A DNA stretch of 64,000 nt from Asanoa iriomotensis. GTDB taxonomy: Bacteria > Actinomycetota > Actinomycetes > Mycobacteriales > Micromonosporaceae. The stretch is from assembly GCF_016862515.1 (NCBI RefSeq), contig NZ_BONC01000012.1:62001-126000 (forward strand), written 5' to 3'. The notes beneath the pieces were generated by a model. The model had not been told where the DNA came from and ran no database searches. It saw nothing but the letters and a program-made list of their open reading frames with translations. The position numbers and the translations under genes are program-made. This document shows positions 17,869 through 24,733 of this stretch, piece after piece; position 1 is the stretch's first letter; the number at the start of each line of letters is the position of its first letter.

Positions 17869-18615
17869 TCAAGCTTTCTCGCGCAGGTAGGCCTCGGCCA
17901 ACTGGCGAAGGCGTGCCCGGTCGAAGCTGTGCCCGTGGCCGGGATGGACGACGGACACGTCGAGGTCCGCGAGGAACTCCATGCTCCGTCGGTAGGCAGC
18001 CACATTGGAGTTCGGCAGATCGTCGATCAGGCCACCGTCGTAGATGATGTCGCCGGAATACAGAGTCCCGGTGCGCTCCTCCAGCAGGGCGATGCTCCCC
18101 GGTGTGTGGCCGGGAAGGTGCAACACAGTCAGCACTCGCCCGCCCAGGTCGATTCGGTCTCCGTCGTCGAGCATCCGGTTCAGGGTCATGGGTTCGACGC
18201 GGTAGGTTGCCGGGTCGTAGCCGGGGCTGGGCAGCACGTCGATCATGAGCTCCGGGACAGGTTCTCCCGCCGCGTCGATCCCCAGTTTGTCGTAGAGCTC
18301 CGCGCCGTACAGGCTCGCCGGCACACCCGCCGCCAAGACCCCCGCCTCGGCGGAGTGGGCGGCCCGGTCACCGAACTCAGCCGCCCCACCGACATGATCC
18401 AGGTGCGCGTGGGTGAGCAGGACCATCGGATCGCGCTCGAACATGCCCGCAATCGCCTCCCGCAAGGCGACCACACCGAGCCCGGCGTCGACCACGACAT
18501 CACGATCGCTACCGCGCAACCACCAGAAGTTCGCCGACAACAGTTCGTTGACGTGCGGTTCCGAGACCCGGATGACGTCGCTGCTCACTTCGGCCTGCGA
18601 ATACCAGTCGACCAT
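17869..18615 (-). CDS. MBL fold metallo-hydrolase
   Basis: 248-aa metallo-beta-lactamase-fold protein. Zinc ligands are visible in H-A-H-L-D-H at ~66-71, in L-P-G-H-T-P-G-S near 160, in S-G-D-I-I-Y-D near 183 and in H-P-G-H-G-H near 222. It resembles glyoxalase II/lactonase-type hydrolases that open thioesters, lactones or phosphodiesters; substrate not assignable. ATG at 18615 is the only start close to the conserved N-terminus, with a weak GGCGG site. The tRNA array lies just upstream on the same strand. Confidence 0.85.
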   Translation of the reverse strand: MVDWYSQAEVSSDVIRVSEPHVNELLSANFWWLRGSDRDVVVDAGLGVVALREAIAGMFERDPMVLLTHAHLDHVGGAAEFGDRAAHSAEAGVLAAGVPASLYGAELYDKLGIDAAGEPVPELMIDVLPSPGYDPATYRVEPMTLNRMLDDGDRIDLGGRVLTVLHLPGHTPGSIALLEERTGTLYSGDIIYDGGLIDDLPNSNVAAYRRSMEFLADLDVSVVHPGHGHSFDRARLRQLAEAYLREKA

Positions 18616-18681
18616 GTCCGCCAGTGTGCCAGCGCGCCCCGGACCTGAATCCGCCGCGGCGGTTGAGCCGAGGGCATGTCG

Positions 18682-18753
18682 TCGCAGGCCCCGGTGTCGA
18701 ACCGGGCGGGTCGCCGTTATGAGCAGCGGCTGGACAGCCAACGTCCTCCTGCG
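18682..18753 (-). tRNA. tRNA with CAU anticodon (Met/Ile2 type), degenerate
   Basis: Anticodon loop CTCATAA closed by CGCTG/CGGCG, T-arm CCCGG-TTCGACA-CCGGG. The acceptor stem can pair in two registers and position 8 is not U. No 3' CCA is encoded. First of 18 tRNA-like genes by coordinate, last in transcription. Confidence 0.65.
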
Positions 18754-18780
18754 ATGTGGTTCCACGAGTGGATGGCGTTG

Positions 18781-18853
18781 AGGCGAAGTCGGGACTCGAA
18801 CCCGCATCTCGCGCTTTGCAGGTGCGGCGCTCACCCAGAACGATCACTTCGCC
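18781..18853 (-). tRNA. tRNA-Cys(GCA)
   Basis: Acceptor GGCGAAG/CTTCGCC is perfect; loop CTGCAAA gives GCA; discriminator U73 is the Cys identity base. One anticodon-stem and one T-stem pair are mismatched. No encoded CCA. Confidence 0.8.
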
Positions 18854-18859
18854 ATGACG

Positions 18860-18931
18860 TGCCCCCGGCTGGATTCGAACCAGCGGCCTCGGCCTTCGGA
18901 CGACCGCGCTCTTCCGCTGAGCTACGAAGGC
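18860..18931 (-). tRNA. tRNA-Arg(CCG)
   Basis: Loop GTCCGAA gives CCG. T-arm GCTGG/CCAGC is perfect, and acceptor GCCTTCG/CGGGGGC uses two G-U pairs. Discriminator A. No encoded CCA. Confidence 0.82.
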
Positions 18932-18941
18932 ATGATTCGCG

Positions 18942-19023
18942 TGCGCGTCCCTGGGCTCGAACCACGCATGCACAAGTGCAACGGTTCTACAGACCGCCGG
19001 GCGACCAGCCGCCCACGACGCGC
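18942..19023 (-). tRNA. tRNA-Tyr(GTA)
   Basis: 82-nt class II tRNA. Loop CTGTAGA gives GTA; the long variable arm is TGCA-CTTG-TGCA. Acceptor GCGCGTC/GACGCGC is perfect. One T-stem mismatch, and position 8 is G. No encoded CCA. Confidence 0.8.
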
Positions 19024-19027
19024 TTGG

Positions 19028-19102
19028 GGTGGATGACGGGACTCGAACCCGCGACCTCCGGAGCCACAATCTGGAGCTCTACCTGCTGAGCTACATCCAC
19101 CG
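19028..19102 (-). tRNA. tRNA-His(GTG)
   Basis: Loop TTGTGGC gives GTG. The His-specific extra G-1 pairs with C73, and CCA is encoded at 19025-19027. U8 present. One of the more canonical members. Confidence 0.88.
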
Positions 19103-19103
19103 T

Positions 19104-19174
19104 GCCCGCACCAGGGTTCGAACCTGGGGCCTCTGCTGTGTGAAAGCAGGGCTGAGCCACAGCCCGTTGCGTAC
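19104..19174 (-). tRNA. tRNA-Val(CAC)
   Basis: Loop TTCACAC gives CAC with a perfect CTGCT/AGCAG stem. T-arm CCAGG/CCTGG is perfect. The acceptor has one mismatch and position 8 is A. Its 5' end overlaps the 3' end of the neighbouring Arg gene by about 3 nt. Confidence 0.75.
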
Positions 19175-19245
19175 CCTCGGCAGGACTCGAACCTGCCACC
19201 TCCGACTTCGTAGGCCGGCGCTCTCTCCAGATGAGCTACGAGGGC
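19172..19245 (-). tRNA. tRNA-Arg(ACG)
   Basis: Loop CTACGAA gives ACG (inosine-modified in bacteria). Acceptor GCCCTCG/CGAGGGT closes with G-U. U8 present. The 3' end runs into the next gene's 5' end. Confidence 0.82.
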
Positions 19246-19282
19246 GTGAGTGTCGTCAATGTGGCTACGACGACAAGGTTGG

Positions 19283-19366
19283 CGGAGAGCGCCGGAGTCG
19301 AACCGGCCCACGAGTCTCCCCGTGGCGGGTTAGCAACCCGCTTGCCTCACCGATGGCGGGCTCTCC
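19283..19366 (-). tRNA. tRNA-Ser(GCT)
   Basis: 84-nt class II tRNA. Loop TTGCTAA gives GCT; long variable arm CACG..CGTG. Acceptor GGAGAGC/GCTCTCC is perfect, discriminator G, and CCA is encoded at 19280-19282. Position 8 is C. Confidence 0.85.
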
Positions 19367-19371
19367 ATTTG

Positions 19372-19445
19372 CGGCGCCGACGGGACTCGAACCCGCGACC
19401 TCTGCCGTGACAGGGCAACGCTCTAGCCGACTGAGCTACGACACC
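19372..19445 (-). tRNA. tRNA-Asp(GTC)
   Basis: Loop CTGTCAC gives GTC; acceptor GGTGTCG/CGGCGCC with two G-U pairs; discriminator G fits Asp. No encoded CCA. Confidence 0.86.
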
Positions 19446-19458
19446 ATGTGTTGCTGCG

Positions 19459-19532
19459 TACCCGCCGAGGGATTCGAACCCCCAACCTCCCGGCCCTGAA
19501 CCGGGCGCCTCTGCCAATTGGGCTACGCGGGC
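19459..19532 (-). tRNA. Atypical tRNA with Leu anticodon CAG, class-I body
   Basis: Loop TTCAGGG on a perfect CCCGG/CCGGG stem gives CAG (Leu), but the variable loop is only about 5 nt. Bacterial tRNA-Leu normally has a long variable arm, so charging identity is doubtful. One acceptor-base mismatch. No encoded CCA. Confidence 0.7.
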
Positions 19533-19540
19533 AGGTGTGG

Positions 19541-19614
19541 AGCCACCGCTCGGGTTCGAACCGAGGACCTCCGCATTACGAGTGCGGCGCTGCTACCAGC
19601 TGAGCTACGGCGGC
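19541..19614 (-). tRNA. tRNA-Thr(CGT)
   Basis: Loop CTCGTAA gives CGT on a perfect CCGCA/TGCGG stem. Acceptor GCCGCCG/CGGTGGC. CCA encoded at 19538-19540. U8 present; canonical overall. Confidence 0.88.
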
Positions 19615-19620
19615 GTGGTG

Positions 19621-19693
19621 TACCTCGGGCGGGGTTCGAACCCGCAGATCCCGGGTTTGAGCCGGGCACCTCTGCCGATTGGGTCACCGAGGC
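19621..19693 (-). tRNA. Atypical tRNA with Leu anticodon CAA, class-I body
   Basis: Loop CTCAAAC on a perfect CCCGG/CCGGG stem gives CAA (Leu). The variable loop is short, and the D-arm resembles that of the CAG gene at 19459, so the two are probably related by duplication. No encoded CCA. Confidence 0.7.
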
Positions 19694-19708
19694 AGGTTGA
19701 TCCCTTGG

Positions 19709-19780
19709 CTCCGGGTGCAGGACTCGAACCTGCGTCCTCCCGATCCAAGTCGGGGCGCCCAACCATCAGAGCAACCCGGA
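19709..19780 (-). tRNA. Atypical tRNA, 6-nt anticodon loop CTTGGA (Pro TGG or Gln TTG)
   Basis: CCCGA/TCGGG closes a loop of only six bases. Counting from U33 gives TGG (Pro), but U1-A72 and G73 resemble tRNA-Gln. T-arm and acceptor are perfect and CCA is encoded at 19706-19708. Confidence 0.6.
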
Positions 19781-19789
19781 TTGTCAGCG

Positions 19790-19862
19790 AGCGGTCGGCG
19801 GGCATCGAACCCGCTTCTTCGGTTTGGAAGACCGACATGTCCGCCGAGTTCACCACGACCGC
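19790..19862 (-). tRNA. tRNA-Gly(TCC)
   Basis: Loop CTTCCAA gives TCC; acceptor GCGGTCG/CGACCGC perfect; discriminator U fits Gly. No encoded CCA. Confidence 0.86.
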
Positions 19863-19886
19863 AGGGCGTTACTGTGTATCCCGACG

Positions 19887-19958
19887 TGCCCACCACTGGG
19901 ATCGAACCAGTGACCTCGCCCTTTCAGGGGCGCGCTCGACCAACCGAGCTCGGTGGGC
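19887..19958 (-). tRNA. tRNA-Phe(GAA) with 6-nt anticodon loop
   Basis: CGCCC/GGGCG closes the six-base loop CTGAAA; the usual Phe loop has seven. Acceptor GCCCACC/GGTGGGC and T-arm are perfect. Position 8 is G. No encoded CCA. Confidence 0.7.
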
Positions 19959-19967
19959 TTGCTTCGG

Positions 19968-20039
19968 TGGACCGCAAGGGGATCGAACCCTTCACGGTGT
20001 GCCTGCCAGGCACACCCGCACACCAGTGGCGCGCGGCCC
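19968..20039 (-). tRNA. tRNA-Ala(GGC)
   Basis: Loop CTGGCAG gives GGC on a perfect TGTGC/GCACA stem. Acceptor GGGCCGC/GCGGTCC. Position 8 is G. The G3-U70 pair, the Ala identity element, is present. Confidence 0.82.
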
Positions 20040-20045
20040 ATCGCG

Positions 20046-20118
20046 TCGGGCACCGGGGAGTCGAACCCCGCGCTTCCTGCTCCCAACGCAGGTCCGGTCA
20101 CCGAGCCGGTCGTACCCG
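20046..20118 (-). tRNA. tRNA-Pro(TGG)
   Basis: Loop GTTGGGA gives TGG on a perfect CCTGC/GCAGG stem. C1-G72 and A73 fit Pro. Position 8 is G. No encoded CCA. Confidence 0.82.
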
Positions 20119-20298
20119 ATGTGCCGCACGCGGCGCCGCCCTTGGTGCGGCGGCGCTCGCGCGGGCACTTATGCGATTTCTCGGTGCCGAGCCGGCCACC
20201 GCGAAGGGTGGCCCGGGTCCGGCCCGAGATTCAGTTGCCATCCACTGTGGAGTTCTCAAATCACAATCCCGATCGATCCGATCGGATCGATAGGAGAG
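20119..20298. other. Spacer inside the tRNA array
   Basis: 180 bp between the Pro and Trp genes, far longer than the 5-37 nt spacers elsewhere in the array. It holds a GC-rich dyad around 20134-20157 and the 20-bp palindrome at 20272-20291. No tRNA T-arm or ORF is seen. It may separate the Trp gene from the rest of the array. Confidence 0.55.
20272..20291. promoter_or_regulatory. Perfect 20-bp palindrome
   Basis: ATCGATCCGATCGGATCGAT reads the same on both strands and has no spacer. It lies 7 nt beyond the tRNA-Trp 3' end. Possible protein-binding, processing or recombination site; nothing in the sequence decides between these. Confidence 0.55.
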
Positions 20299-20371
20299 CA
20301 GGGGCGACAGGACTCGAACCTGCAACCACCGACTTTGGAGATCGGTGCGCTACCAGTTGCGCCACACCCCT
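20299..20371 (-). tRNA. tRNA-Trp(CCA)
   Basis: Loop CTCCAAA gives CCA on CCGAT/GTCGG. Acceptor AGGGGTG/CGCCCCT, discriminator G and U8 are canonical Trp features. First gene of the array in the transcribed direction. No encoded 3' CCA. Confidence 0.9.
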
Positions 20372-20393: not shown

Positions 20394-20437
20394 GGAAACA
20401 GAAACGCCGCCCGGTCCCGGTTCGGGAGGGGCGGCGT
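20394..20437 (-). terminator. Intrinsic terminator of the 43-aa ORF
   Basis: On the minus strand a 9-bp stem (ACGCCGCCC/GGGCGGCGT, 20404-20437) is followed directly by TTTCTGTTTC. It lies 17 bp beyond the small ORF stop and before the tRNA array. Confidence 0.7.
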
Positions 20438-20453
20438 GAGCGCTTCTGCTGCG

Positions 20454-20585
20454 CTAGCTCAGCCGCCGTCCCGTGTGGTTCGGCTTATCGCTGGCGGTCG
20501 TGTCAACGGATCGCCCGGCATAGGGCATGCCCACGAAACCGCACAGCGTTGACCGCTGCGGTTCGGCGATGGCTTGCCACAACAT
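20454..20585 (-). CDS. Small hypothetical protein, 43 aa
   Basis: Not recognised. The 43-aa product begins M-L-W-Q-A-I-A-E-P-Q and contains L-C-G-F-V-G-M-P-Y-A-G; no membrane segment or repeat is seen. Support for a real gene: ATG at 20585 has GAGGAG 10 nt upstream, a promoter with 17-nt spacing lies before it, and an intrinsic terminator follows. It sits between the peptide/YcaO unit and the tRNA array, all on one strand. The single Cys and the position next to YcaO make a second modified peptide conceivable, but that is speculation. Confidence 0.5.
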   Translation of the reverse strand: MLWQAIAEPQRSTLCGFVGMPYAGRSVDTTASDKPNHTGRRLS

Positions 20586-20627
20586 GTCCGGGTCGCTCCT
20601 CGATCGTGTGTGCGTTGTCTGAGATCC

Positions 20628-20656
20628 AAGGTAGATCGCGCTGCCGAGGAGGGCAA
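20628..20656 (-). promoter_or_regulatory. Promoter of the 43-aa ORF
   Basis: On the minus strand TTGCCC (20651-20656) and TACCTT (20628-20633) are separated by 17 nt, about 40 nt upstream of the start codon. A fair sigma-70-type match. Confidence 0.5.
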
Positions 20657-21017: not shown

Positions 21018-22180
21018 GATCCTCTCCTTGTCAGTGTTGACGGCCAGAGGCGCTCGCCCCGGCCGGTGGGCACGACGGGGACACCATGCCGCACCAGGCT
21101 GAAGCGCTCCAGTCCCGGCGCGATCGTGGTGGCCACGGCGATCAGGGAGTCGACCGGCGCGACCTCGCAGACGTGGTGGTCGACGCCGTGCCGGAGCAGT
21201 GCCTGCCGGACGCGTGCCCGTCCCCATTCCGGGGAGCCGTCCCCGGTGGGGTCGGTGCGCAGCGGCACCGCTCGGAACGCCAGCTCGTCGAGCGGCATCG
21301 CGGCGCATCGCCGCAATGCCGGCCAGGCCGCCAGTTGGTGGTGCCGTGCGGGTGGTGGCAGCGCACAGGTCTGGAGCAGCTCGGCGAGGGCGCGCGACGC
21401 GGCGTCGGTCGCCCAGCACGAGGCGCCGGCACCCAGGCGGCCTGCTGACGTGACCGCGAGGTAGACCGGGATGTCCAGGTCGGTCGTGACGTCGAGCAGG
21501 TGGACCGGTGCGCCGGCCGCCTGGGCTGCCTGGTCGTGCAGCACGCGGAGCGCGCCGGGCAGGTCTTCGGCCGGCACGACGTCGACGTCCGGGACGCCCG
21601 CGACGTACCAGCGCAGCAGTGCCTGGCTGAGGGCGTCGTGCTCGACCAACTCGCAGAGTCCGTGGTAGACGGCCTCGGCGAGGTCGACGCCCGCGGCGGT
21701 GCCGAGGCTGGACGAGTAGCGGAGCAGGCCGCGGTACGGGCGGACGTCATCGCCCGGTGCGGGGCGGCGGTGGTAGCGCGGGTCGGCGAGGAACGTGGGA
21801 TAGCGGACGCCGCTGTACGAGGCGCAGGCGGCCACCGAGTCGGGGTACTCCGCCGCCCAGCGCTGGATGACGAGGTCGTGCTCCAGTGCGGGTTGCTCGG
21901 CCACGTCGGCGGCGGACGACAGCCTGGTGGCGTCCGGCGTTCGCCGCCGGTTGTCGGGTGCCGACATGAGGTAGCGCTCGAGCGCCTCGAAGTGCGCGCT
22001 GGCCGCGCCCTGGGCGCCCGCGCCCTTGCCGGCCCCGGTCGCGACCGGCTGCCCGTCGCGGACCAGCGTGACGCACCTGGTCTGCCCGAGAACTGTCGCG
22101 TGCGCGGCGAGACCGAGCCGGTCGATCTCCGCAAGGGCGGTGTCGAGGGCCTGCTGTGCGGAGACGGATCGAAACGGCAC
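21014..22180 (-). CDS. YcaO domain protein (ATP-dependent backbone cyclodehydratase/thioamidase family)
   Basis: 388-aa YcaO-fold protein. Family motifs: S-A-H-F-E-A-L-E-R-Y at ~56-65; S-L-G-T-A-A-G followed by H-G-L-C-E-L-V-E-H-D-A at ~171-181 (ATP/Mg-binding acidic residues); A-S-R-A-L-A-E-L-L-Q-T near 245. YcaO enzymes phosphorylate a peptide amide oxygen to form azolines, amidines or thioamides. GTG at 22180 is chosen because GGGAGGGGAG lies just upstream. No E1-like/ThiF partner, dehydrogenase or TfuA gene is adjacent, so this is a minimal YcaO locus. Its stop overlaps the start of the 61-aa peptide; a UvrA-like gene is divergent 93 bp away. Confidence 0.85.
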   Translation of the reverse strand: MPFRSVSAQQALDTALAEIDRLGLAAHATVLGQTRCVTLVRDGQPVATGAGKGAGAQGAASAHFEALERYLMSAPDNRRRTPDATRLSSAADVAEQPALEHDLVIQRWAAEYPDSVAACASYSGVRYPTFLADPRYHRRPAPGDDVRPYRGLLRYSSSLGTAAGVDLAEAVYHGLCELVEHDALSQALLRWYVAGVPDVDVVPAEDLPGALRVLHDQAAQAAGAPVHLLDVTTDLDIPVYLAVTSAGRLGAGASCWATDAASRALAELLQTCALPPPARHHQLAAWPALRRCAAMPLDELAFRAVPLRTDPTGDGSPEWGRARVRQALLRHGVDHHVCEVAPVDSLIAVATTIAPGLERFSLVRHGVPVVPTGRGERLWPSTLTRRGS

Positions 22181-22273
22181 GAACTCCCCTCCCGGCGCAG
22201 AGGTGGACTCTGTGACGGAGGCTACAGGCCGTTTCGGCGTTACGCGGGGGCGATCGGGGCTAGACCGGAAGCT

Positions 22274-24733
22274 ATGGCGCCTTCGAAGATCGCCCCTCCG
22301 CCGGACACCCTGCCGCGGGCCATTCAAGCGCGCGGCGTGCGGCACAACACCTTGCGGGACCTCGATGTCGACGTGCCGCTGTGGCGGACCGTCGTGATCG
22401 CCGGCGTGTCCGGGTCCGGCAAGACCTCGCTCGCCATGGGCACCCTCTACGCCGAGGGTATGCACCGGTTTCTGGAAGGGCTGAGCACCTACAGCCGGCG
22501 GCGGCTGACGCAGGCCGAGCGGCCCGATGTCGACCGCATCGATCATCTGCCGGCCGCGCTCGCCCTGCGGCAGCGGCCGCCGACACCCGGGCCGCGCAGC
22601 ACCGTCGGGACCATGAGCGAGGTGCTCAACGTCCTGCGGCTCATCATGTCGCGGCTCGGCACGCACCGGTGTCCGAACGGGCACGACGTCCCGCCGTCCA
22701 TCGCCACGCAGGCCATGGAGATCCAGTGCCCGGTTGACGGTGTGCGGTTCGAGGCGCCGAGCGCCGAGTCGTTCGCGTTCAACTCGATCGGGGCCTGTCC
22801 CGGCTGCAACGGCATCGGCACCCGGTTCGACGTCGACGAGGACACGCTCGTCGCCGACCCGGACAAGACGATCGACGAAGGGGCCGTGCTCCCGTGGAAC
22901 GTGGGCGGGCGCCGGCTGAGCATGTACGCCGCCGGTGAGTTGGGTGTGCGGCTCAACGTCCCGTACAAGCGACTGTCCCGCAAGGAGAAGAATCTCGTCC
23001 TGCACGGCAGGCCCGTCAAGCAGCCCGTCGTCCTCTCCGGGCGCAACGGGCGGCGGGTGCGGCTCAACGTCACCTACGACAACGCGGTCACCGCGGCGCA
23101 GAAGTCGGAGAAGAGCCGGTACCTCGTCTCGCACACCTGTCCCGTCTGTCACGGCACCCGGCTGCGGCCCGAGGCGTTGACCTCGCACCTCAACGGACGC
23201 AACCTCGCCGAGATCAGCGCCCTCGACCTCGACGAGTTGGTCGTGTTCGTCAACGACCTGCCGCCGTTGATGCCGCCGGAGCTCAGCCGCATGACGACCG
23301 GGCTGATCGGCGAGCTGACCGGGGCCGTCGGGCCGCTGCTCGACCTCGGGCTGGGCTATCTGGGCCTCGATCGGGCCGGCGCCACCCTGTCGACCGGTGA
23401 GCGGCAGCGGATCGAGCTGACCTCGACGGTCCGGGCCAACACGACCGGCATGTTGTACGTCCTGGACGAGCCGTCAGTCGGCCTGCATCCGAGCAATGTG
23501 GAGGGACTGCGCAAGACCGTCGCCGCGCTCGCCGGCAACGGCAACACCGTCGTGATCGTCGAGCACGACCTCGACCTGATCCGTTCGGCCGACTGGATCA
23601 TCGAGCTGGGTCCGGGCGCGGGCCGGCTGGGCGGTGGAATCGTCGCCGAGGGTACGCCCGACCAGATCCTGAAGAGCCGAAAGTCGATCATCGGACCGTT
23701 CCTGGACGGCCGGCGCGCGGTCGACCGCCCGCCCCGGCCGCTGCCGCGTGAGCGGGCCATCGTCGGCGTGCGGCGCCTCTACAACCTGCGCAACGTGACC
23801 GCGGCGTTCCCGGTCAACCGGATGACCGCGCTGGCCGGCCCGTCGGGCGCGGGCAAGACCGCACTGGTGTTGGACAGCCTGATCCCCGCGGCCCGCGCGC
23901 AACTCGCCGGCGACGCGCTCCCGGCACACGTGAAGTCCGTCGACCTCGGCCCGATCCGCCAGGTGGTGGAGATCGACGCGACCCCGATCGGTCTGAACGC
24001 GCGGTCGACGCCGAGCACGTACTCGGGTGCCTTCGACGCCATCCGCGCCTACTACGCCGCCGAGTCGGGGCGCTCCGCCGGCGCTTTCTCGTTCAACACC
24101 AAGGAAGGGCAGTGCCCGACCTGCCGCGGGATCGGCTCGATCGACCTGGACGTGCAGTACCTGCCCGACATCAACGTCGAATGCCCGACCTGCCACGGCA
24201 AGCGGTTCAACGACGAGACATTGGCGGTACGAGTAGCCGGTCTGACCATTTCCGACGTGCTCGGACTGACCGTACGCGAGGCGGTCGACCACTTCAGCGG
24301 ACAGCCGGCGATCGTGCGCCCCCTGCGGCCGATGGTCGACGTCGGTCTGGGCTACCTGCGCCTGGGCGAGCCGACGCCGTCACTGTCCGGTGGGGAGTCG
24401 CAGCGCCTGCGGATCGCCGCCCGGCTGCGGACCAGCCAGCGCGACGTGCTCTACGTGCTCGACGAGCCGTCGACGGGGTTGCACCCGGTGGACATCCGTA
24501 CCCTCGTCGGCGTCTTCGACCGGCTCCTCGCGGACGGCGCCACGATCATCGTGATCGACCACGACCTGGACCTGCTGGCAGCGGCCGACCACGTGATCGA
24601 CATGGGACCGAGCGGCGGCCCGGACGGCGGCCGCATCGTCGCGCGCGGCACGCCGTCCGAGGTCGCCGCCGATCCGCACAGCGTGACCGGCCCATGGCTG
24701 GCGGCCCACCTAGGGTCTGTCTCGAAGTCCTGA
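22274..24733 (+). CDS. UvrA-like ABC-class ATPase (DrrC type)
   Basis: 819-aa UvrA paralogue with two nucleotide-binding halves: Walker A G-V-S-G-S-G-K-T at ~44 and G-P-S-G-A-G-K-T at ~522. Signatures are L-S-T-G-E-R-Q-R near 371 and L-S-G-G-E-S-Q-R near 703. Zinc CXXC pairs occur near 178, 280 and 615-640. It is shorter than bacterial UvrA (about 950 aa), as expected for class III/DrrC-like proteins linked to self-resistance against DNA-binding drugs rather than general repair. It is divergent from the YcaO/peptide unit and convergent with rox, 2 bp apart. ATG at 22274 has GGAAG upstream. Role in resistance is inference. Confidence 0.87.
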   Translation: MAPSKIAPPPDTLPRAIQARGVRHNTLRDLDVDVPLWRTVVIAGVSGSGKTSLAMGTLYAEGMHRFLEGLSTYSRRRLTQAERPDVDRIDHLPAALALRQRPPTPGPRSTVGTMSEVLNVLRLIMSRLGTHRCPNGHDVPPSIATQAMEIQCPVDGVRFEAPSAESFAFNSIGACPGCNGIGTRFDVDEDTLVADPDKTIDEGAVLPWNVGGRRLSMYAAGELGVRLNVPYKRLSRKEKNLVLHGRPVKQPVVLSGRNGRRVRLNVTYDNAVTAAQKSEKSRYLVSHTCPVCHGTRLRPEALTSHLNGRNLAEISALDLDELVVFVNDLPPLMPPELSRMTTGLIGELTGAVGPLLDLGLGYLGLDRAGATLSTGERQRIELTSTVRANTTGMLYVLDEPSVGLHPSNVEGLRKTVAALAGNGNTVVIVEHDLDLIRSADWIIELGPGAGRLGGGIVAEGTPDQILKSRKSIIGPFLDGRRAVDRPPRPLPRERAIVGVRRLYNLRNVTAAFPVNRMTALAGPSGAGKTALVLDSLIPAARAQLAGDALPAHVKSVDLGPIRQVVEIDATPIGLNARSTPSTYSGAFDAIRAYYAAESGRSAGAFSFNTKEGQCPTCRGIGSIDLDVQYLPDINVECPTCHGKRFNDETLAVRVAGLTISDVLGLTVREAVDHFSGQPAIVRPLRPMVDVGLGYLRLGEPTPSLSGGESQRLRIAARLRTSQRDVLYVLDEPSTGLHPVDIRTLVGVFDRLLADGATIIVIDHDLDLLAAADHVIDMGPSGGPDGGRIVARGTPSEVAADPHSVTGPWLAAHLGSVSKS

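Follow-up and report, generated by a model that had tools for sequence, protein, structure and literature searches.

Leader peptides that may contain all 20 amino acids precede spare tRNA arrays in Asanoa and its relatives, suggesting control by attenuation

Why should a bacterium with a complete set of tRNA genes keep a further, densely packed one, and what would call it into use? The question was raised by a stretch of 64,000 nucleotides (nt) from Asanoa iriomotensis (the window), which is part of contig 12 in an 8.57-Mb Asanoa assembly (Micromonosporaceae). ARAGORN called 17 tRNA genes at 18681-20371, all on the minus strand, and together with a degenerate tRNA-Tyr gene these make up the compact one-strand array of 18 genes described in the original prediction. 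That prediction, made from the letters of the window, did not include an upstream leader open reading frame (ORF) and terminator (20395-20601). The shared leader was first seen by aligning the upstream regions of related arrays. The array is probably a spare tRNA set behind a ribosome-mediated attenuator that would sense the shortage of any charged tRNA. The leader and attenuator region contained the following features.

20651-20656, minus strand: -35-like hexamer TTGCCC of the putative array promoter, by reading
20628-20633, minus strand: putative -10-like hexamer TACCTT after a 17-nt spacer, by reading, kept in Asanoa leaders
20596-20601, minus strand: Shine-Dalgarno (SD) sequence GAGGAG of the leader
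20454-20585, minus strand: leader ORF of 43 codons plus stop TAG, MLWQAIAEPQRSTLCGFVGMPYAGRSVDTTASDKPNHTGRRLS, with all 20 amino acids
20462-20467, minus strand: core GGCGGC of the antiterminator 5' strand, within the last codons of the leader ORF
20440-20454, minus strand: small hairpin of sequence GCGCAGCAGAAGCGC, predicted to fold after the leader stop and ahead of the terminator
20395-20437, minus strand: Rho-independent terminator ACGCCGCCC...GGGCGGCGT with T-rich tract, before tRNA-Trp

A leader ORF with SD and terminator was present in 15 arrays found through array homology. These 15 leaders were read; L065 was cut by a contig end and L066, L068, L088 and L073 were left out. Further leaders were searched for with a covariance model comprising only the last 8 leader codons and the terminator, which is therefore blind to the amino acid repertoire in selection. 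At E<=1e-3, the model matched in 217 of 354 genomes of the family, not all of which can be arrays. Sixty further regions were our choice among the matches listed, and all 60 were located upstream of at least one tRNA gene on the same strand. Altogether, 72 homologous leaders were compared, after removal of L082, L083 and L086 as duplicates of L156, L171 and L182; four other matches were not counted among them. Some genomes held several loci (four in G127, two each in the own genome and in G001), and tRNA counts may be too low for L156, L176, L183, L215 and L221, which touch contig ends. The tally gave 17 genus labels, or perhaps 16, with Actinoplanes possibly counted twice. Among 397 genomes of the order, the leader also occurred in another family, in G387 and G395 of one genus, both linked to arrays. 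In three Asanoa genomes (L246, L247 and L249), leaders of 22-27 codons with a similar terminator were followed by no array, and a tRNA-Met gene lay 255-513 nt downstream of them.

The anatomy was well conserved. The SD consensus was matched at 5 or more of 6 bases in 65/72 leaders, with start codons picked by the best SD, and 57 of the 72 ORFs ended with TAG. A promoter-like pattern, TTG[CA][CT]-N16..20-TANNNT, preceded 41/72 leaders. The terminator hairpin was found in all 52 regions examined. It was paired in 94.5% of cells (74 rows), and its covariation was matched by none of 500 shuffles; pairing of the small hairpin was poorly conserved (56.5% of cells). An intrinsic terminator thus stands ahead of the first tRNA gene, as in an attenuator. 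The end of the leader ORF and the terminator 5' arm were predicted to pair at a mean of −22.6 kcal/mol, compared with −15.2 kcal/mol for shuffled controls and −11.4 kcal/mol for other ORF windows. Across the 72 loci, the mean predicted antiterminator (−30.1) was stronger than the terminator (−24.0), and the antiterminator core was nearly invariant and 96% paired. Two arrays of the Actinoplanes type were preceded by a tandem pair of attenuator matches (L090 5852-6171 and L182 8518-8838).

The most distinctive property of the leaders was their amino acid repertoire. The window leader alone contained 20 of 20 amino acids (P ~0.003). The first 15 leaders held a mean of 18.1 different amino acids, against 14.9 in protein windows of the same length (149 predicted proteins), 13.1-14.9 in the other five frames and 14.8 in shuffled DNA. 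All 20 occurred in 9/72 leaders. Leaders of arrays with at least 28 tRNA genes had a mean of 19.3 amino acids (14 leaders, all 18-20; chance about 15), followed by 17.7 for 20-27 genes (13 leaders), 17.4 for 10-19 genes (24 leaders) and 15.6 for 1-9 genes (21 leaders). The correlation between leader diversity and array size, uncorrected for descent, gave a Spearman rho of 0.65 (p 7e-10, n=72) and rose to 0.71 (p 5e-5, n=26) after thinning to below 50% identity. It was also seen within Micromonospora (g4; rho 0.77, n=30) and within genus g47 (rho 0.83, n=9). Nearest disjoint leader pairs supported the coupling in 13 cases and opposed it in one, with 10 ties (p 0.0018). The repertoire also followed the number of amino acids served by the array, so that leader codons and array products matched.

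The peptide sequence itself was not kept. Full-array leaders of different genera had a mean identity of 37%, and Cys, Trp, Lys and other rare residues shifted position among them. Substitutions were spread evenly over the codon positions (93/88/88 in 18 pairs), which argues that there is no purifying selection on the sequence of the leader peptide. The repertoire rather than the sequence is maintained. A drifting sequence with a kept repertoire is what a sensor of any tRNA predicts.

The attenuator was also linked to genes of RNA repair. In the own genome, the model had three matches at E<=1e-3, namely both arrays and rtcB, where the match lay 106 bases before the gene on contig 49 (RtcB identified by PF01139, E 2e-125). 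Based on tblastn, RtcB was encoded behind 12/72 leaders, TROVE behind 10 and HNH at 43; RtcB and TROVE were found together at none of the 72 loci. The TROVE count is a lower bound because PF05731 also matched near the G070 and G089 leaders. Coding-strand model matches at E<0.01 were present in 9 of 40 rtcB upstream regions, chosen from 136 genomes with RtcB; the G051 rtcB leader falls outside its retrieved piece and is additional to the nine. These leaders were found by the covariance model, and a weak terminator finder missed most of them. Leaders of the rtcB type carried 6-9 Arg codons each, mixed CGG, CGC and CGA. Further genes of the array loci were a TROVE gene whose intein contains a LAGLIDADG domain (L057 11838-14564), a small in-array protein with a weak DarG macro-domain match (L058 9992-10459 and L060 9840-10307; NCBIfam, E 1.4e-7, under cut-off) and a DUF7873 (PF25283) gene within arrays L176-L180 (5 loci, 2 genera). 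The array-type HNH gene was also detected with no tRNA genes found in the 7-kb flanks, in Paractinoplanes, Actinoplanes and Micromonospora (L074, L076, L078-L081, L084, L085, L087 and L089).

The window array itself is listed in the order of transcription, called by ARAGORN unless stated otherwise.

20298-20371, minus strand: tRNA-Trp (cca), array gene 1
20236-20297, minus strand: Trp-Pro spacer with TTTGAGAACTCCACAGTGG, conserved at 84-86% identity in comparison with other arrays
20045-20118, minus strand: tRNA-Pro (tgg)
19966-20039, minus strand: tRNA-Ala (ggc)
19886-19958, minus strand: Phe-like tRNA, 6-nt anticodon loop
19789-19862, minus strand: tRNA-Gly (tcc)
19706-19780, minus strand: TTGG-loop gene, 6-nt anticodon loop, in the Gln-ttg slot of related arrays
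19620-19693, minus strand: tRNA-Leu (caa), short variable arm
19538-19614, minus strand: tRNA-Thr (cgt)
19458-19532, minus strand: tRNA-Leu (cag), short variable arm
19371-19445, minus strand: tRNA-Asp (gtc)
19280-19366, minus strand: tRNA-Ser (gct)
19171-19245, minus strand: tRNA-Arg (acg)
19102-19174, minus strand: tRNA-Val (cac)
19025-19100, minus strand: tRNA-His (gtg)
18943-19023 (approximate), minus strand: degenerate tRNA-Tyr (gta), by eye, position as in related arrays
18859-18931, minus strand: tRNA-Arg (ccg)
18780-18853, minus strand: tRNA-Cys (gca)
18681-18753, minus strand: tRNA-Met (cat), last gene of the array

Eleven of the 18 genes scored above the Rfam tRNA gathering score of 29 bits (39.5-64.6 in a permissive Rfam scan) and Val was just under it with 28.5 bits. 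Ser, Cys, Pro and Ala matched the tRNA-Sec model below its cut-off, and Met and Tyr matched no model in the same scan. The slot of the Tyr gene between Arg-ccg and His is the Tyr position in several related arrays. For the two genes with a 6-nt loop, the anticodons were output as 'tg' and 'ga'. An encoded CCA was confined to His, Ser, Thr and the TTGG gene, as had been predicted.

The Trp-Pro spacer may point to a second layer of control. Its element resembles the NusA-binding site of actinobacterial rrn operons, and the own 16S rRNA leader carries a similar element, TTTGAGAACTCAACAGGG. The element pattern occurred within 700 nt of the leader in 47/72 arrays and elsewhere in the same loci once in 1.46 million bases; the exact TGAGAACTCNANAGTG was present twice in the own genome, both times within arrays. 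The spacer element is a candidate rrn-type Nus antitermination site. If it binds NusA, the array transcript would be protected like rRNA.

In the genome, 50 tRNA genes lay outside the two arrays. They covered all 20 amino acids and occurred as single genes, pairs or triplets, so that a cluster of 18 genes is far from ordinary. Array genes were 56-81% identical to chromosomal genes of the same anticodon (15/17 have such a counterpart); for Met, identity to the closest cat gene of the chromosome was 58%. That the array holds the sole copies of its genes was thus ruled out by the separate complete set, and the supplementary set put forward in the original prediction was borne out by that set and the low identity of the array copies. 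One chromosomal tRNA with anticodon CUA (G000 contig 2:175781-175852; L033 182-254) was labelled Pyl by ARAGORN, while TAG, as noted above, is the stop codon of 57/72 leader ORFs. The second array, L044 on contig 57, comprised Pro, Gly, Gln, Leu-gag, Leu-cag, Arg, Ser, Lys and Asn. Its locus, which follows an ABC permease gene and is close to tRNA-Arg(tct), was common to all six Asanoa genomes, and the window array is an extra copy elsewhere. L044 had its own leader and HNH, PD-(D/E)XK and TROVE genes. The two arrays had only the anticodons Pro-tgg, Leu-cag and Arg-acg in common, with the two Leu-cag genes 99% identical; a complementary split of tRNAs between them is suggestive only. In A. ishikariensis (G001), a small second array with a leader, L172, comprised just Pro-tgg, Ala, Phe and Gln-ttg, four genes not found by ARAGORN in the main array L057.

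Similarly ordered arrays were present across the family. They contained 1-37 tRNA genes in a common order with losses (Trp first; Arg-ccg, Cys and Met last), and most had an HNH gene behind Gly-gcc. The window array was without the HNH gene and some tRNA genes of its relatives. Phage genes had not been visible to the original prediction, and likewise phage, integrase and conjugation genes had no Pfam match in the 9 flanking ORFs, the only window ORFs searched. The suggested link to mobile elements did not fit the evidence on this array family, which has one array at a fixed locus in six Asanoa genomes. An empty insertion site of the window array could not be demonstrated among relatives because homologues of the flanking metallo-beta-lactamase (MBL) and UvrA-like genes were separated by about 0.5 Mb in the relative G002 and fell on separate contigs in the others. 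In the window, the MBL-fold gene (17869-18606) is directly downstream of the array and shares its strand; the UvrA-like gene (21500-24733) is upstream and its predicted start is overlong.

From these findings we infer the following course of events. Polymerase would transcribe a leader whose 43-codon ORF contains every amino acid. A ribosome that has reached the stop would cover the last codons (GGCGGC), the terminator would form and transcription would end before the first tRNA gene. If any charged tRNA became scarce, the ribosome would stall upstream in the ORF, the last codons would capture the terminator 5' arm by pairing, the terminator could not form and the array would be transcribed, probably with rrn-type Nus antitermination, since the transcript is long and untranslated. 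The tRNAs made in this way would replace lost ones, most likely those cleaved by anticodon nucleases that come from defence systems, toxins or competitors. RNA repair would be added by the same attenuator ahead of rtcB. A replacement of cleaved tRNAs had already been proposed in the original prediction; it became more plausible through the 20-amino-acid leader, the coupling to array size and the attenuator at rtcB. The evidence leaves evenly balanced the further-reaching claim of a universal sensor of tRNA integrity, in which losing any single tRNA would release a near-complete replacement set and, from the sister copy, an RNA ligase.

Several observations weigh against an attenuator that senses every charged tRNA. 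The leader of the genome's own second array has just 16 amino acids, and within Asanoa the correlation with array size was not significant (rho 0.29, p 0.48, n=8). The small arrays L161, L214 and L232 have diverse leaders of 18 amino acids each. Three of four further weaker matches (L246, L247 and L249) showed a short leader and terminator without an array. Codons for N and K, often also D, E or H, stand 7-10 codons before the stop, and a ribosome stalled there may partly mask the antiterminator. When the last 10 codons are disregarded, leaders of full arrays still contain 16.6 amino acids (null 13.5), but not 20. Non-cognate pairing between genera was almost equal to cognate pairing (−20.9 kcal/mol). 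Antiterminator covariation was weak, with 8 double-change pairs versus 5.9 in shuffles and 44/500 shuffles as high, because the core hardly varies. Several genes of the window array look degenerate. Leaders of rtcB were poor, with 11-15 amino acids where readable, and the own rtcB leader, read by eye, has 17 codons and 11 amino acids; the claim for all tRNAs is therefore limited to the arrays.

Some regulatory upstream ORFs are known to sense antibiotics or slowed translation, and it is possible, though unlikely, that the leader senses ribosome-targeting antibiotics or a general slow-down and not individual tRNAs. Any stalled ribosome would suffice, and the Anabaena tRNA operon is induced by translation-targeting antibiotics according to PMC10272220. 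Such a sensor needs no particular codons, however, whereas full arrays keep 18-20 amino acids despite the drift of the peptide. We regard as doubtful a general sensor of amino acid starvation that tunes tRNA supply. A leader with 20 amino acids would report the lack of any of them, but extra tRNA genes and an RNA ligase are no remedy for it, and rtcB, TROVE and tRNA genes suit RNA damage better. It is similarly doubtful that array and leader are a decaying relic, the former cargo of a mobile element without present use. The genes missing from the window array, including HNH, the Tyr and Met genes that fit no model, the two anticodon loops one base short and the range of array sizes are in line with decay. 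Yet the window leader retains 20 amino acids, promoter-like hexamers, terminator and rrn-like element, full arrays occur in several genera, and a locus is conserved in six Asanoa genomes. A decoy set that soaks up nucleases instead of serving translation, the other role named in the original prediction, is quite improbable, and the analysis turned up nothing in its favour; the two altered loops and the low identity to host tRNAs might be read that way, but most genes have a normal anticodon and a decoy would not require the full repertoire. The idea that the leader ORF encodes a small conserved protein which acts in its own right, as its conserved length (median 43 residues) and ends could indicate, was rejected for want of codon-position bias and is hardly compatible with the 37% identity between genera.

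The preferred reading of a spare tRNA set behind an attenuator was compared with known systems. Attenuators of the trp, his and leu operons consist of an SD, a short leader ORF, a terminator and a competing antiterminator; their leaders have many codons for a single amino acid or a small number of them, and the genes controlled are biosynthetic. The window has an SD, a short leader ORF and a terminator as well, with a predicted competing antiterminator. Here, by contrast, nearly all amino acids are included in the leader, each one to a few times, and the genes behind it encode tRNAs. Rsr/YrlA/RtcB repair loci are similar in that TROVE (Ro60-like) follows some arrays and RtcB others, and differ in that the two never stood together here. 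In the window, which was the region scanned for it, no Y RNA reached the gathering score. No description of such an array attenuator was found in the open-licence literature of PubMed Central (PMC), where no single paper combined tRNA array and leader peptide.

A tRNA array unit has been defined by at least 20 tRNA genes and at least 2 per kb (Tran 2016, as quoted in PMC5966550). With 17 genes in 1.7 kb the window array reaches this density, and with 17, or 18 including Tyr, it misses the size; 27/72 related arrays have at least 20. In PMC5966550 and PMC12803027, arrays of Mycobacterium chromosomes, phages and plasmids are likewise dense, on one strand and specific for most amino acids. They duplicate the host set, from which they have diverged, and like the relatives of the window array they embed an HNH gene. 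Their gene order is different, and they are often located on plasmids, prophages and phages, whereas the main Asanoa array occupies a fixed chromosomal locus. An antidefence role has been proposed for tRNA arrays (PMC12803027). Six arrays from plasmids or phages of other actinobacteria were inspected and showed no attenuator leader, although two of them begin too close to the edge of the retrieved sequence for a judgement. A gene of the RNA ligase family lies near the tRNA array of Bifidobacterium plasmid pMP7017 (L196 7934-8971). As described in PMC10272220, the trn operon of Anabaena PCC 7120 is also a big spare tRNA operon. It is stress-induced, by translation-targeting antibiotics, and its repressor TrcR also controls rtcB and an HNH gene. 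Its control differs: the ribbon-helix-helix repressor binds at the −10 box, with the site TGTAGTAT, in place of leader ORF and terminator. That site is absent from the window promoter region as read. The outputs of the Anabaena trn operon are those described here, but the two systems are separate.

A classical attenuator monitors a single amino acid or a small number of them. If the proposed reading is true, a leader with 20 amino acids is a message that tests the tRNA pool as a whole, and spare tRNA arrays, long a puzzle, gain a logic of regulation open to testing one codon at a time. The arrays would be tied to RNA repair through RtcB and the Ro60-like TROVE, and would show how bacteria may survive tRNA-cleaving toxins and defence systems. 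The leader repertoire would also predict, by sequence alone, which arrays remain functional. If the universal sensor is also true, it would represent immunity or resistance against anticodon nucleases that is encoded on the chromosome of the host itself and maintained within a single order of actinobacteria.

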